From Burkholderiales bacterium RIFCSPLOWO2_02_FULL_57_36 (GTDB taxonomy: Bacteria; Pseudomonadota; Gammaproteobacteria; Burkholderiales; Burkholderiaceae_D), in assembly GCA_001770855.1 (NCBI GenBank), contig MESE01000091.1:1-64000 (forward strand): a stretch of DNA of 64,000 nucleotides. Direction: 5' to 3'. Position numbers and translations under genes: made by a program. Positions 5,606-50,438 of the stretch are shown here, piece by piece (the stretch's first letter is position 1; the number at the start of each line of letters is the position of its first letter). The notes beneath the pieces were generated by a model that worked only from the letters and a program-made list of their open reading frames with translations, was not told the origin of the DNA and did no database searches.

Positions 5606-6433
5606 ATGCAAAAAGCCGAATTGGCGTCGTCGACAAACGGTGAAACTGATCAAGGCACAATAGCGTTTTATCGTCATGTCCTGGAAGCATTGAATGCTTC
5701 CGCAATCCCGTTCCTGGTCGGCGGCGCCTACGCATTCAACCAGTACACGGCGATCAGCCGCAACACCAAGGACCTCGATATCTTCATTCGGCGCGACGAT
5801 TATTCGCGGATGAGCGGCGCGTTGCTTCAGGCGGGGTACAAAACCGAGATGACCTATCCGCACTGGCTCGCGAAAATTCGCTCCAACGGAGATTTGATCG
5901 ATCTTATTTTCAGTTCCGGAAACGGTGTCGCGGAAGTCGATGCAGCATGGTTCGACCACGCGATTCAGGGGCAGGTGCTCGATGTCCCGGTAAAACTCTG
6001 TCCAGCCGAAGAAATGCTCTGGTCCAAGGCATTCATCATGGAGCGGGAACGCTACGACGGCGCCGATATCGCGCACCTGATACGTGCGCGCGGCGGCCAA
6101 CTCGACTGGCAGCGCCTGCTCCATCGGTTTGGACCGTACTGGCGGATGCTGTTAAGCCATCTGGTCATGTTCGGTTTTGTGTATCCCGCGCACCGCGACC
6201 TGGTTCCGATATGGGTCATCGATGAACTGCTGGAGCGCCTGCGTCACGAAATCCGTACACCGGCGCCGACAGACCATATTTGCCTCGGTCCGCTATTGTC
6301 GCGAGAACAGTATTTGACGGACATCGGAGAATGGGGATACCACGATGCCAGGCTCACTCCTTCGGGCAACATGACGGCAAACGAGGCGGCGATCTGGACT
6401 GATGCGATACAGCGCAAGGGAGAGCCGTCCTAG
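5606..6433 (+). CDS. Nucleotidyltransferase-fold protein (MNT/AbiEii-like)
   Basis: A 275-residue protein whose N-terminal third matches the minimal nucleotidyltransferase fold: Gly-Gly at 39-40 (FLVGGAYAF) followed by the paired acids D56 and D58 in KDLDIF, and a later acidic strand. The C-terminal part is helical and Trp/Arg rich and is not assigned. Related proteins include toxin-like and antibiotic-modifying enzymes, but no partner antitoxin is visible; the divergent neighbour is a phosphoesterase. The start at 5606 is preferred; an upstream start at 5567 is possible. Confidence 0.75.
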   Translation: MQKAELASSTNGETDQGTIAFYRHVLEALNASAIPFLVGGAYAFNQYTAISRNTKDLDIFIRRDDYSRMSGALLQAGYKTEMTYPHWLAKIRSNGDLIDLIFSSGNGVAEVDAAWFDHAIQGQVLDVPVKLCPAEEMLWSKAFIMERERYDGADIAHLIRARGGQLDWQRLLHRFGPYWRMLLSHLVMFGFVYPAHRDLVPIWVIDELLERLRHEIRTPAPTDHICLGPLLSREQYLTDIGEWGYHDARLTPSGNMTANEAAIWTDAIQRKGEPS

Positions 6434-30673: not shown

Positions 30674-31107
30674 AGATAACGGCGGTAGGTACAAAGACTG
30701 GTCAGGGCCTGTTTGCAGGTGTTGTTAATCTGTTTATGGGCGCGTGTATTGTAATGCCTAAATGCAATGTTTCGGGAATTTTAACGTTGGGGCAAAAAAA
30801 CGGAAATTTGATTTCTTATGGCGTATTCCATTTTGTTGAAAAACAATCCGGCGCTGCGGGCCGGACTTTGGTCGGGAAGAGCATAGGGGATATGACGAAT
30901 ATCTTGTTGCTGCAACAACTTGTTCATGGCAGGATGCGTGGATTGTGTTTACATCATCAGTACGCCGTTTTATTGGTCAAGACAAGGTCCTGAAAATCGC
31001 GGTCAAACAGCGGAGAGTCAACATGCATGCGGTTTTCCATCGATTTGTCGTGACAGAATATGCGACACGCCCCGTCGATATGCGCCACGCTTTGTCGCCT
31101 ATAACAC
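30674..31107. other. Intergenic region left of the cassette array
   Basis: This 434-bp gap contains the promoter side of the TonB receptor operon (AT-rich around 30770-30840). Near its right end, GCGACA (about 31062-31067) and TGTCGC (about 31094-31099) pair imperfectly just before the first cassette core, perhaps the remnant of an attC or attI site. No integrase gene is present. Confidence 0.5.
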
Positions 31108-31126
31108 GTTGGGCGGCGAAAAACCT

Positions 31127-31798
31127 ATGAGCATTGACCTCCGAAACGCGGACTCGCGGGTACTTCACGAACCATTTTCCGAGCACCTTGGCGCGAGTAG
31201 CCCACACGCCGCGCTTGCGTGGTTAATTGGTGTCCTTGCCACACAATCTTCCGCGTTGCGCTCATCGAATTCTTACCTGGTCGCGTATACCGGGTGTGTC
31301 CAGGCGATCGACTGGCTTGAGGCAACCGTTGCCTCACCGGTAACTACGCATTGGGGGCAGGGTGCGGCGCTGTTGGGTACCCCTTGGCCACGCATAGAGA
31401 TCTGGCTAGCTGCTGCCGGACCACGACAAATGATGGCGCTCGACACACTTGTCGCCTATCGTGCTCCTGCGCCGAATATGGCGCCCTTGGCCCAAATCGC
31501 CGCGCCTGTCCTGCCCGAAGCTCCTGCACTAAGCGAGTATCAAACAACCCTCAATGCTGTCCTAAACGAGCAAAGCACACCTCGAACAAAAAAGGCGGTC
31601 GAAAGTGCCATAGGTTACGCCGACGAAATCCTCTCGCGCGACAAACGGGGAGTATCCGTAGCGGACCTTCCTATGTTGTTCCTGAAGCCGGAGCTATTCG
31701 AAAATGCGTCAGAGATAATGAGTCGTCACGAGAAAGTCATTTCTGGCGTGCGTGAGTCTGTCCAAGATTTGCTCGCGCAGTTCCCGCCACGTTCATGA
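31127..31798 (+). CDS. Cassette-borne hypothetical protein (223 aa)
   Basis: The first cassette gene starts 13 bp after the GTTGGGC core and ends 6 bp before the attC palindrome, a fit typical of cassette genes. The protein has a hydrophobic N-terminal third (AALAWLIGVLATQ, then SYLVAYTGCVQAIDWLE), a Pro/Ala-rich middle and a charged helical C-terminus. I do not recognise the family, and no catalytic motif is obvious. No Shine-Dalgarno is seen. Confidence 0.72.
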   Translation: MSIDLRNADSRVLHEPFSEHLGASSPHAALAWLIGVLATQSSALRSSNSYLVAYTGCVQAIDWLEATVASPVTTHWGQGAALLGTPWPRIEIWLAAAGPRQMMALDTLVAYRAPAPNMAPLAQIAAPVLPEAPALSEYQTTLNAVLNEQSTPRTKKAVESAIGYADEILSRDKRGVSVADLPMLFLKPELFENASEIMSRHEKVISGVRESVQDLLAQFPPRS

Positions 31799-31804
31799 CT
31801 CGCC

Positions 31805-31871
31805 GCCCAACAAATCATTCCACCGGACCTGCGCGAAAAGCTGCACAGGCCAGTGAATTCAGACGCTAGGC
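31805..31871 (+). repeat. attC-like site 1
   Basis: A 67-bp imperfect palindrome from GCCCAAC (31805-31811) to GCTAGGC (31865-31871). The inner arms pair as ATTCCACCGGACCTG against CAGGCCAGTGAAT with unpaired bases between, as in known attC hairpins. The left half closely recalls the aadA-type 59-base element. The right core has one change from GTTAGGC. Confidence 0.78.
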
Positions 31872-31909
31872 AGCAAGTTTCCGTCACGATAGCGTATATG
31901 GAGAAAACA

Positions 31910-32503
31910 ATGAAACACAAGTTCCGGTGTCGATGCGGACACCTCGCAGGCGAGGTAATGGAGCCACGCAAGGCAATTCGCGGGGTTTGCTATTGTAAAG
32001 ACTGCCAAGCATACGCCAACGCGCTTGGGCAGCGGCAGAGCGTACTCGATGATTGCGGGGGCACCGACGTAGTTGCAACTCAAAGCAAATATGTTGTCTT
32101 CACCCAAGGAGTGCAAGCCTTGGCCTGTCTTTCGTTGTCCGAGAAAGGTCTGCTTCGTTGGTATGCGTCATGCTGTAACACTCCAATCGGCAACACCTTG
32201 AGGAATCATCGTGTTCCCTATGTCGGACTCGTTCATTCTTGCCTGGGGAGCAATACGGAGATCACGAGCACATTTGGGGCAGTTCAAATGCAGCTCAACA
32301 CAAAAGGCGCTTCAAGCAGACCAACCTGGAAGGCAACCGGGAAACTGGCGGCTTTGGGAAAGTTCGTGCCGTCGCTCTTGCTTGGGCGTCTTAACGGAAG
32401 CTACAAGGTCTCGCCGTTCTTCGACTTCAATCAAGGTAGCCCTATAGTCAAACCCAAAGTGCTGTCGCAGTCGGAATTGCAGCAGGCGAGAAATGCCGCA
32501 TAA
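31910..32503 (+). CDS. DUF6151/GFA-like cysteine protein (cassette-borne)
   Basis: A 197-residue protein beginning FRCRCGHLAGEV and then GVCYCKDCQAYA, a zinc-binding Cys arrangement close to the GFA (glutathione-dependent formaldehyde-activating) fold, with further Cys in YASCCNTPIGNT. This matches DUF6151 proteins. Activity is unknown. The start at 31910 has a GGAG eight bases upstream. The stop codon lies inside the following attC core, common for cassette genes. Confidence 0.85.
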   Translation: MKHKFRCRCGHLAGEVMEPRKAIRGVCYCKDCQAYANALGQRQSVLDDCGGTDVVATQSKYVVFTQGVQALACLSLSEKGLLRWYASCCNTPIGNTLRNHRVPYVGLVHSCLGSNTEITSTFGAVQMQLNTKGASSRPTWKATGKLAALGKFVPSLLLGRLNGSYKVSPFFDFNQGSPIVKPKVLSQSELQQARNAA

Positions 32504-32555
32504 CATGCATTTGAACTTATGACACGCAAGCGTGCCCGGTAACCGAATGTTGGGC
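32498..32555 (+). repeat. attC-like site 2
   Basis: A 58-bp imperfect palindrome from GCATAAC (32498-32504, overlapping the stop codon) to GTTGGGC (32549-32555). The centre CACGCAAGCGTG forms a hairpin tip. Length is that of a minimal attC. Confidence 0.75.
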
Positions 32556-32632
32556 GTCAAAATCGGCCAGCGCTCATTCAATGTTTGACAAGCCAGTCTT
32601 CCGCTGAGCCATCTGTGAAAGGAGAATCGTAA

Positions 32633-33079
32633 ATGACTACAGGCAATGTGCGACTGCATCGCGTACTCCGCGCACCTCCGGAGCGCGTTTATCGGGCGTT
32701 CCTAAACCCCGACGCAATGGCGAAGTGGTTACCGCCATACGGGTTCACATGTAAGGTTCACCATATGGATGCGAAGGTTGGTGGCACTTTTCGGATGTCG
32801 TTCACGAATTTCACAAATGGGAACGGTCACTCATTTGGTGGCGAGTATCTCGAACTCGTTCCCGACGAGCGAATTCGCTACACTGACAAATTTGACGATC
32901 CTAACTTGCCCGGAGAAATGCAGGTGACGGTGGTTTTAACGAAGGTGTCCTGCGGAACCGAGATCAGCATCGCGCAAGAAGGAATACCTGCGATTATTCC
33001 TATCGAGATGTGCTACCTCGGGTGGCAAGAGTCCCTTGCGCAACTTGCAACACTTGTCGAACCCGAGATTCCAGGCTAG
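32633..33079 (+). CDS. SRPBCC/AHSA1-type domain protein (cassette-borne)
   Basis: A 148-residue Activator-of-Hsp90-homolog-type SRPBCC protein: LHRVLRAPPERVYRAFLNPD at the start, MAKWLPPYGFTCKV, GGTFRMSFTNF and CYLGWQESLAQLATLVEPE at the end. The family binds hydrophobic ligands and is frequent among mobile cassettes. A GAAAGGAGAATC site precedes the ATG. It has no close relation to the SRPBCC gene at 15.6 kb. Confidence 0.88.
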   Translation: MTTGNVRLHRVLRAPPERVYRAFLNPDAMAKWLPPYGFTCKVHHMDAKVGGTFRMSFTNFTNGNGHSFGGEYLELVPDERIRYTDKFDDPNLPGEMQVTVVLTKVSCGTEISIAQEGIPAIIPIEMCYLGWQESLAQLATLVEPEIPG

Positions 33080-33088
33080 CAAGATGAC

Positions 33089-33158
33089 GCCCAACCCTGC
33101 AGTCAACTGGACGCTGCACGATAAAGCTGCGCAGCGCCGGTTGCCCTAAACATTGAAT
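33089..33158 (+). repeat. attC-like site 3, degenerate right core
   Basis: An imperfect palindrome from GCCCAAC (33089-33095) to ATTGAAT (33152-33158). The arms pair through CAACTGGACGCTGC and GCAGCGCCGGTTG. The right core has lost the GTT needed for recombination, so the array's outer end is probably fixed. Confidence 0.65.
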
Positions 33159-33211: not shown

Positions 33212-33952
33212 ATGAAAACATTTTCTCTATCTGTTTTGCTTGTCGGCGTGCTACTCACTTCCGGCGCCGCATATGCCGCGGGCACAACGCATTGGACCTA
33301 TTCAGGCGAGGAAGGACCCGAAAGCTGGGCCAGGCTTACGCCTGAATTTGGCGCCTGTGCTGGCCGGAATCAATCGCCGATCAATTTAGCCGGCTTCATC
33401 GAAGCCGACCTGAAGCCAATCAAAATTTCGTACCGGGCGGGCGGCAATGAAATCTTGAACAACGGTCACACGGTGCAAGTGAATTATGTTGCGGGGAGCA
33501 ACATTTCAGTCGATGGTATCCAGTTCGACCTGAAGCAATTCCACTTCCATGCACCCAGTGAAAACCATATCAACGGCAAGTCATATGCCATGGAAGCGCA
33601 TTTGGTCCACGCGGATAAAGATGGAAACCTCGCGGTTGTTGCACTCATGTTCAAAGAAGGCGATGAGAACAAAGAGCTGACAAAAATATGGCCTTTGATT
33701 CCCAAAAACGCAGGCGAGAAAACCGCACTGCCATCACCTTTTTCCGTAGCGCAGCTGCTGCCTTCCAGCCGTCACTACTACCGTTTCAACGGCTCATTGA
33801 CAACTCCTCCTTGTACCGAGGGTGTGCGGTGGCTGGTTATGAAAAAGCCTGTCTCTGCTTCAAAAAAGCAAGTGGAGGCTTTCTCGCATCTGATGCGCCA
33901 TCCAAATAACCGCCCGGTGCAGCCTGTTAATGCACGCCCGGTATTGCAGTAA
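33212..33952 (+). CDS. cah: Periplasmic alpha-carbonic anhydrase
   Basis: A 246-residue protein with a signal peptide (cleaved near AYAAG) and the alpha-CA domain: WTYSGEEGPESWARL, QSPINL, zinc ligands in QFHFHAPSENH and AMEAHLVH, and LTTPPCTEGVRWLVM near the end. It interconverts CO2 and bicarbonate in the periplasm. Two Cys (ACAGRNQ and PPCTEG) match the usual disulfide. It lies right of the cassette array and is transcribed with its own leader; a GTG at 33209 is an alternative start. Confidence 0.95.
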   Translation: MKTFSLSVLLVGVLLTSGAAYAAGTTHWTYSGEEGPESWARLTPEFGACAGRNQSPINLAGFIEADLKPIKISYRAGGNEILNNGHTVQVNYVAGSNISVDGIQFDLKQFHFHAPSENHINGKSYAMEAHLVHADKDGNLAVVALMFKEGDENKELTKIWPLIPKNAGEKTALPSPFSVAQLLPSSRHYYRFNGSLTTPPCTEGVRWLVMKKPVSASKKQVEAFSHLMRHPNNRPVQPVNARPVLQ

Positions 33953-35020: not shown

Positions 35021-35513
35021 TTGATTCTCCTCATGAGTCGTGGTGTGATTATGAATCAATCGACCGATCCTTGTGGACAAAGCTTCGGACCGTGCATGCG
35101 GACCTGCTTTTCGCCGTGCGGTCCGATCGCGGGTATAAGCGGAACCGAATGCCGGTGGACGCCTGATGCTCGACAGAAGAAAATGGGGGGCGATGAAACC
35201 GGCGGCTGGGTAGCCGGCGAATGAACCAGTAATCGGGGTGAAACGCATTGGAAATGCATCTGCCCGTCCTTGGATCCAGCAAGCCGATGTTCCGCGGAAC
35301 ATCGGCGCCGTATTCGATCATGCACATCGTTCAGGCTGACGGCAACGACGGTTGCCTGGTCATCGCCGGCGATATTTTTTGCGGCGGCCAATTGATCTGC
35401 ATCTCGCGCCACGGCTCGCTGGCAGGATTTTCTCCGTTTGCATCGGATGTGCGTACCTGCCGGCGTCGCGCCTGGCGATGCCGCTGTGCTCGTCATCGGC
35501 TGCCTGATCGTGC
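35021..35513. other. Intergenic region, no gene recognised
   Basis: Open frames cross this 493-bp gap on both strands, but their proteins are Arg/Ser/Cys-rich and resemble no family. I see no tRNA, repeat or clear terminator. Confidence 0.5.
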
Positions 35514-49764: not shown

Positions 49765-50438
49765 GCGATATTTCTCCTTTCTCTTTTACGCGTGCTGCAA
49801 TGTCTGCCGCAAAGTTTGGGGGATAAAATAAGTACTGACGTAGACATTGGTCATTTGAATCCACTATAAGTAGCTTGCCTGTTGGTTCCGCGGCAGGGGT
49901 GCTGTGGTTTTATGCAGGTCTAATGACTCCCATGGCGCGTCACACATGGCGAAGCAGCGCAGGACAATAATCGTTCGGCATCGGAGTGAACTTTTTAAAT
50001 GCGTGGGTATCGAAATTTGCATGGATGTTGTCCAAAATTTCGTAAGTGGCTGATATGCATCAATGAGCCGGCCTTTGATGAAGCATAGGCATCGATAGAT
50101 CGGAAAATGCAACAGGTTTGAAATGATCCAGTGCAATGCATGGCTGAACCATTTTCAACAGTTTTCCTGCGCCAGCGCAGAAAATGGCAATGTTGAAGTG
50201 AATCAGGTATCAGCGGCACGCATATCTGATATCACGATTGAAAAGCATACTTTTGGCGCACAGGACGTTATAGTTCAGTTGTCTCCTCCACCCTCCTAAA
50301 GGTTGGATTTAGCCCGCAACTGCAAGGTTCGCGGGCTTTTTTATGTGCGCACGGCATGTGCGTTCCTGGAAATGCAGTTCCTTCGGCAAGCCGTCCCGAT
50401 TTGAACCCGCTCCATTTTCTGCGGCCGCCGGTACGGCG
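49765..50438. other. Long intergenic region with an orphan terminator
   Basis: This 674-bp gap has no convincing protein gene. It is fairly AT-rich. An interrupted inverted repeat runs from CCATTTTC (about 50150) to GAAAATGG (about 50187) around TGCGCCAGCGCA. A strong plus-strand terminator at 50311-50346 has no annotated gene before it, so a small RNA or a lost gene is possible. Confidence 0.6.
50311..50346 (+). terminator. Rho-independent terminator without an annotated upstream gene
   Basis: AGCCCGCAAC pairs with GTTCGCGGGCT (one bulge) around TGCAAG and is followed by six T. No plus-strand coding gene ends in the preceding kilobase. Confidence 0.8.

Follow-up and report, generated by a model that had tools for sequence, protein, structure and literature searches.

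What does an array of gene cassettes owe its place to when no integrase lies near it? This question is raised by positions 31108-33158 of the window, the whole 64,000-nucleotide stretch of Burkholderiales bacterium RIFCSPLOWO2_02_FULL_57_36 that was analysed (start of contig MESE01000091.1, C91 below). An earlier note, made from the letters of this DNA, had described three single-gene units here, and all three are indeed on the plus strand (CDS1, 31127-31798; CDS2, 31901-32503; CDS3, 32633-33079). The stretch is also lower in GC than the window, as the note had stated, by the small difference between 54.2% and 57.1%. In addition, its claim that no tyrosine recombinase is encoded in the 64 kb holds for contig C91, which is without any Phage_integrase match (zero PF00589 or TIGR02249 matches in a profile search), and the array thereby has no integrase nearby in the sense used for CALINs. 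With bounds taken from the sequence, cassette 1 (31109-31865, plus strand) runs from the cut in the attI core to the right core of attC1, cassette 2 (31866-32549, plus strand) from there to a GTTGGGC core at 32549-32555, and cassette 3 (32550-33152, plus strand) from that core to the decayed core of attC3. CDS1 encodes 223 aa of unknown family, with no match in Pfam, NCBIfam or PADLOC and an unusable structure model (mean pLDDT 37). CDS2 encodes a DUF6151 protein of 200 aa (PF19648, E 1.5e-27) and CDS3 an AHSA1/SRPBCC protein of 148 aa (PF08327, E 7e-34). The right neighbour, a plus-strand carbonic anhydrase gene (33212-33952; PF00194, E 1e-47), lies outside the array.

Recognition of the attC sites relied on covariance models that we built from the arrays of relatives with the window excluded (R1, 18 sites; R2, 87 sites). 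The first site, attC1 (31805-31871, plus strand), scores 40.8 bits with R1 (an E value of 3e-7 for the 64 kb). R2 gives it 37.4 bits, and its bottom strand forms a hairpin that is better than the fold of the top strand (-10.4 versus -5.6 kcal/mol). The third, attC3 (33089-33158, plus strand), is weak by model at 14.8-16.6 bits, with E values of 0.19-0.28 over 64-84 kb and of 0.005 when the 2.2-kb array is searched by itself. A 55-bp part of it nevertheless matches the attC found in blaOXA-2 cassettes at 91% identity (E 8e-12), and attC3 is a real attC with a decayed right core, ATTGAAT in place of GTTRRRY. The middle site, attC2 (32498-32555, plus strand), is decayed or doubtful: its score of 7.9 bits corresponds to E 0.41 over the 2.2-kb array, the folding test gives no hairpin (z 0.06), and it is a relic at best. 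Of the three attC sites proposed by the note, covariance search thus recovers the first clearly and the third weakly and leaves the second unrecognised, and the bottom-strand folding expected of them is found for attC1 and fails for attC2. The observation that the second stop codon lies inside the attC is correct, as the TAA of CDS2 (32501-32503) falls within the left core GCATAAC. Set against the CALIN threshold of at least two model-recognised attC, the array has one clear site, one that is weak by model yet blaOXA-2-like, and one that is unrecognised. An Rfam search gave no attC match at the locus, its sole result being an unrelated sRNA, and an attC pattern search of the window's own genome found nothing.

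Ahead of cassette 1 lies an element that the note had overlooked. A plus-strand, intI-less module of 217 bp through the core (30898-31114), which we call type A and which is defined by homology to copies elsewhere in the same genome, ends in an attI proper (31056-31114, plus strand) that aligns with 12 other attI sites of this genome. The array starts at its GTTRRRY core, GTTGGGC at 31108-31114. The window attI is found by nhmmer at E 3e-12 with a profile that includes the window attI itself; since that profile was built from the aligned sites, independent support comes from BLAST. With 30960-31114 as query, BLAST identifies copies on C111 (85%), C106 (77%), C63 (75%), C2 (72%) and C18 (82%, a short part). 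The match to C2 covers 98 bp at 72% (E 1.4e-6), and the C2 copy directly adjoins an intI relic, which is the expected position of an attI. On the strength of this homology, the sequence leading into cassette 1 is judged to be a genuine attI platform. Similarity among type A copies is confined to the stretch between about 30898 and the core GTT (31108); beyond that core, differing cassettes start. A complete integron has intI adjoining attI; no intI remnant was seen beside the window attI in the profile search of the contig. A plus-strand mini-ORF of 35 aa (31023-31130), preceded by GGAG, spans the attI, and within an ATGA its stop and the CDS1 start overlap. In all three of the remaining full-length type A copies, a mini-ORF of the same layout ends at the core or shortly beyond. 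We rejected it as a conserved peptide, as substitutions number 22, 16 and 12 at codon positions 1, 2 and 3, with no sign of constraint. A sigma-70 scan of the platform returned no promoter-like site on the plus strand.

The genome around this locus is rich in integron parts. The note had considered the chromosome otherwise free of integron genes, which is contradicted by three damaged intI genes (on C84, C108 and C2) and many attC sites on other contigs of the draft assembly (5.4 Mb, 151 contigs, 97.5% complete, 5.2% contamination). The C84 gene is full length with one in-frame TGA, is preceded by a LexA-like box and has several attC beside it; the C108 gene is in frameshifted pieces, and that on C2 lacks its middle. 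Besides the window's, the genome has 13 attI sites, 11 of which are without intI, whereas those on C84 and C2 adjoin one. Thirteen sites including the window's align as attI, and a site on C81, of a third type, is counted additionally. Type B, the type of the C84 integron, is also present on C52, C106, C88, C128, C141 and C61. The C52 and C106 copies are 90% identical to each other over 304 bp reaching the core, non-intI sequence included, and together with C88 they have non-intI sequence in common to the left of an intI stub. The shared non-intI sequence of the C52 and C106 copies indicates that an intI-less platform was itself copied.

A check for MITE-type features found a common left boundary in type A and an inverted GTGTTATAAAT-like stretch near the left end of type B; no target-site duplication was recognised by eye, and the right ends of copies differ. 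The left parts of type B (L124, L126, L143, L097, L145) contain a TGTTATAAAT stretch that repeats, in inverted orientation, the ATTTATAACA flank of the attI core. In the C18 type A platform (L123:5372-5487), similarity stops at an upstream GTTAA. Another unit takes over from there, which would fit use of this GTTAA as a second core in the platform. A repeat of about 120 bp directly follows the last attC on C81 (L127:3891-4018), C63 (L122:5540-5658), C84 (L035:6723-6849) and C2 (L037:8660-8728), and occurs also at C28:6706-6799. This repeat, which may represent the right flank that the platforms originally had, is absent from the right flank of the window array. Long imperfect palindromic repeats near attC are shared by C38 (L096:5387-5548) and C18 (L123:3725-4075 and 6136-6261). 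Module A was not found in plasmids, nor in 394 genomes of the family, a search that scored two candidates per genome and that weak copies could escape; its pattern had two matches in GTDB genomes, in Bradyrhizobium and Herbaspirillum, which we judged to be chance. Type B was likewise not found in plasmids.

Satellite attI sites are also present in relatives. The attI region of one intI locus from each of 21 family members was queried against these genomes and the window's own, and 26 loci from relatives plus one more own-genome locus were examined. Extra attI copies occur in most of the relatives searched, and an attI followed by attC without intI is present in 12 of the 21, from 5 other genera; these relatives were selected for carrying intI, and the fraction with satellites is therefore not a survey. 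Own genome and relatives together gave 43 attI sites; 25 of these are followed on the same strand by an attC at most 1.5 kb away, and a single one has an upstream attC, which stems from a tandem attI. When C84 and G156, with intI or a remnant directly beside them, are set aside, 8 own-genome sites (weak attC matches included, with 12 bits at C106b and 21 bits at C88) and 15 sites in 12 relatives remain. At the relatives' loci, tblastn detected intI only at L207 (a remnant) and L209 (a split gene at a distance of 3 kb). In six relatives, the region matching the intI locus extends 16-28 nt into intI and in two others 76-88 nt, and the remaining relatives have only part of the attI region in common with it. 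The layout is also found in G045, G192 and G143, whose genomes are single contigs.

Cassettes common to the main integron and a satellite were identified in four relatives: G082 (321 bp, 100% identical), G045 (463 bp, 100% identical, in a single-contig genome with the loci about 1.3 Mb apart), G171 (513 bp, 99.8%) and G299 (281 bp, 97.9%). In all four, the ends of the shared cassette lie at recombination cores; longer matches in G045 (1360 bp, 98.5%) and G082 (393 bp, 98.0%) are not flush at both ends. Transfer between main array and satellite may have run in either direction. The shared cassette of G082 is directly behind attI in the satellite and behind another attC in the main array, which is what insertion in trans by IntI predicts. 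These observations make it very probable that, in these relatives, satellite attI sites are loaded by IntI acting in trans.

For the window locus, we consider it probable that the array is an intI-less satellite of an integron that received its cassettes via an IntI encoded elsewhere, a reading drawn from sequence comparison. An intI-less attI platform would have been duplicated within the genome, and the window cassettes would have been loaded at the copied platform in trans, as in the relatives. No cassette common to more than one locus was found among the own-genome loci compared, and we therefore infer trans loading in this genome from the relatives. The platform may drive expression of cassette 1, and the layout suggests that the mini-ORF could be coupled to the start of CDS1, in the manner of ORF-11 in attI1. 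As the intI genes of this genome all appear to be broken and decay has set in at attC2 and attC3, the array is probably frozen now. Besides the absence of shared own-genome cassettes, the misfit of attC2 and of the attC3 right core with a functional site counts against the satellite reading, as does a draft assembly with 5.2% contamination.

Described origins of CALINs are off-target insertion, intI loss and rearrangement (PMC8618304), and the recognised loss of intI offers an unlikely alternative in which a complete integron at this position lost intI by deletion and left attI and cassettes behind. The presence of attI without intI, the damage to the other intI genes of the genome and the six relatives in which similarity extends only 16-28 nt into intI, a pattern that decayed integrons could leave, all agree with it. 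However, type A copies have a common non-intI left part and a common left boundary, and in type B the sequence to the left of the intI stub, itself non-intI, is common to C52, C106 and C88. Both patterns indicate that an already intI-less platform was copied, and no intI remnant was seen beside the window attI. It is very improbable that IntI instead placed the cassettes at an unrelated, attG-like genomic site. The right flank is not common to other arrays, and attG insertion is a known process, as far as it is cited in PMC12444791 and PMC12901181, but about 100 bp of the left flank are homologous to own-genome attI, and the homology to other platform copies extends to about 200 bp. We rejected an attG-type target, which would be unrelated to attI, on this homology.

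An assembly artefact, with intI lost or displaced through contig breaks or contamination, is exceedingly improbable for a locus that lies within an 88-kb contig and is flanked left and right by ordinary genes. While 151 contigs and 5.2% contamination leave room for such errors, and CALIN counts run too high in draft genomes (PMC9024848), most of the other copies likewise lie within contigs, and the layout recurs in the single-contig genomes G045, G192 and G143. That the locus is no integron at all, only three ordinary chromosomal neighbours with chance palindromes, deserves hardly any credence. Such a reading would account for the unrecognised attC2, but not for attC1 with its E value of 3e-7 or for attC3 with its match to a known cassette attC. 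Moreover, the genes around a close CDS3 relative from Eleftheria are unrelated to those of the array, on which ground the ordinary-neighbours reading was rejected, and in plasmids relatives of CDS1 and CDS2 are absent or merely distant. Viral contigs held no relatives of the CDS3 protein. The satellite reading keeps part of what the note had proposed, cassettes without an integrase, which stands for the 64 kb and for two of the three attC; the platform at 30898-31114 and an integron-rich genome have to be added to it.

By definition the locus would be a CALIN, and it has the tandem cassettes with attC and no integrase nearby that characterise CALINs (PMC9024848, PMC8618304), but it differs in being headed by a genuine attI from a dispersed platform family. 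Its attI is homologous to those of intI-bearing loci and its cassettes point away from it, as in a sedentary chromosomal integron with intI, attI, Pc and array; in contrast, no integrase is at the locus, and the genome has many attI where integrons are described as typically having one (PMC9024848). The Xanthomonas CALINs away from the ilvD integron resemble it in their intI-less arrays, recurring chromosomal positions and widespread intI inactivation, although attI heads are not reported for them (PMC12444791; compared by description only). Insertion at attG (Loot et al. 2024, as far as cited in PMC12444791) is alike in that IntI places cassettes outside the main integron, but attG is unlike attI, to which the window target is homologous. 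Delta-attI-type gene cassettes (PMC12901181) also have attI sequence away from its usual place beside intI; in these cassettes of mobile integrons, a partial attI stands downstream of the gene instead of attC, whereas the window attI is upstream, as a platform. The mini-ORF recalls ORF-11 of attI1 (PMC8876359), where GGAG and a mini-ORF run through attI into the first cassette with a stop at or near the cassette start; the platform mini-ORFs are longer (about 29-41 aa) and unrelated in sequence, so the likeness is one of layout alone and not of peptide.

We lean slightly towards a broader model for this bacterial family, distributed integrons, in which intI-less attI platforms would have spread through the chromosome as a repeat family, and a single integrase acting in trans would serve its many members, each of them a site of cassette loading and expression in its own right. 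Pseudogenes of intI are common (PMC2426708), and mobilisation of CALINs in trans by a functional IntI has already been stated (PMC12444791). No description of dispersed attI platforms heading CALINs, or of such a route to CALINs, was found in limited searching of open-access literature. The standard program detects no attI outside class 1 integrons (PMC9024848), and attI-headed arrays are for this reason counted as headless CALINs. If many CALINs do sit on copied attI platforms, a single integrase could serve the loading and expression of cassettes at many positions of the chromosome, and the origin of CALINs would become testable by querying each genome with its own attI. Distributed integrons, if real, would be a general and overlooked route to CALINs.

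Three further elements were observed on the contig to the right of the array. A perfect 24-bp palindrome lies at 35283-35306, and positions 50280-50344 match the Betaproteobacteria toxic small RNA family (Rfam RF02278, 52.4 bits). About 2.2 kb past the window end, a further attC-like site is present on the minus strand of C91 (66180-66242; L095:6181-6243), with 22.8-23.9 bits.
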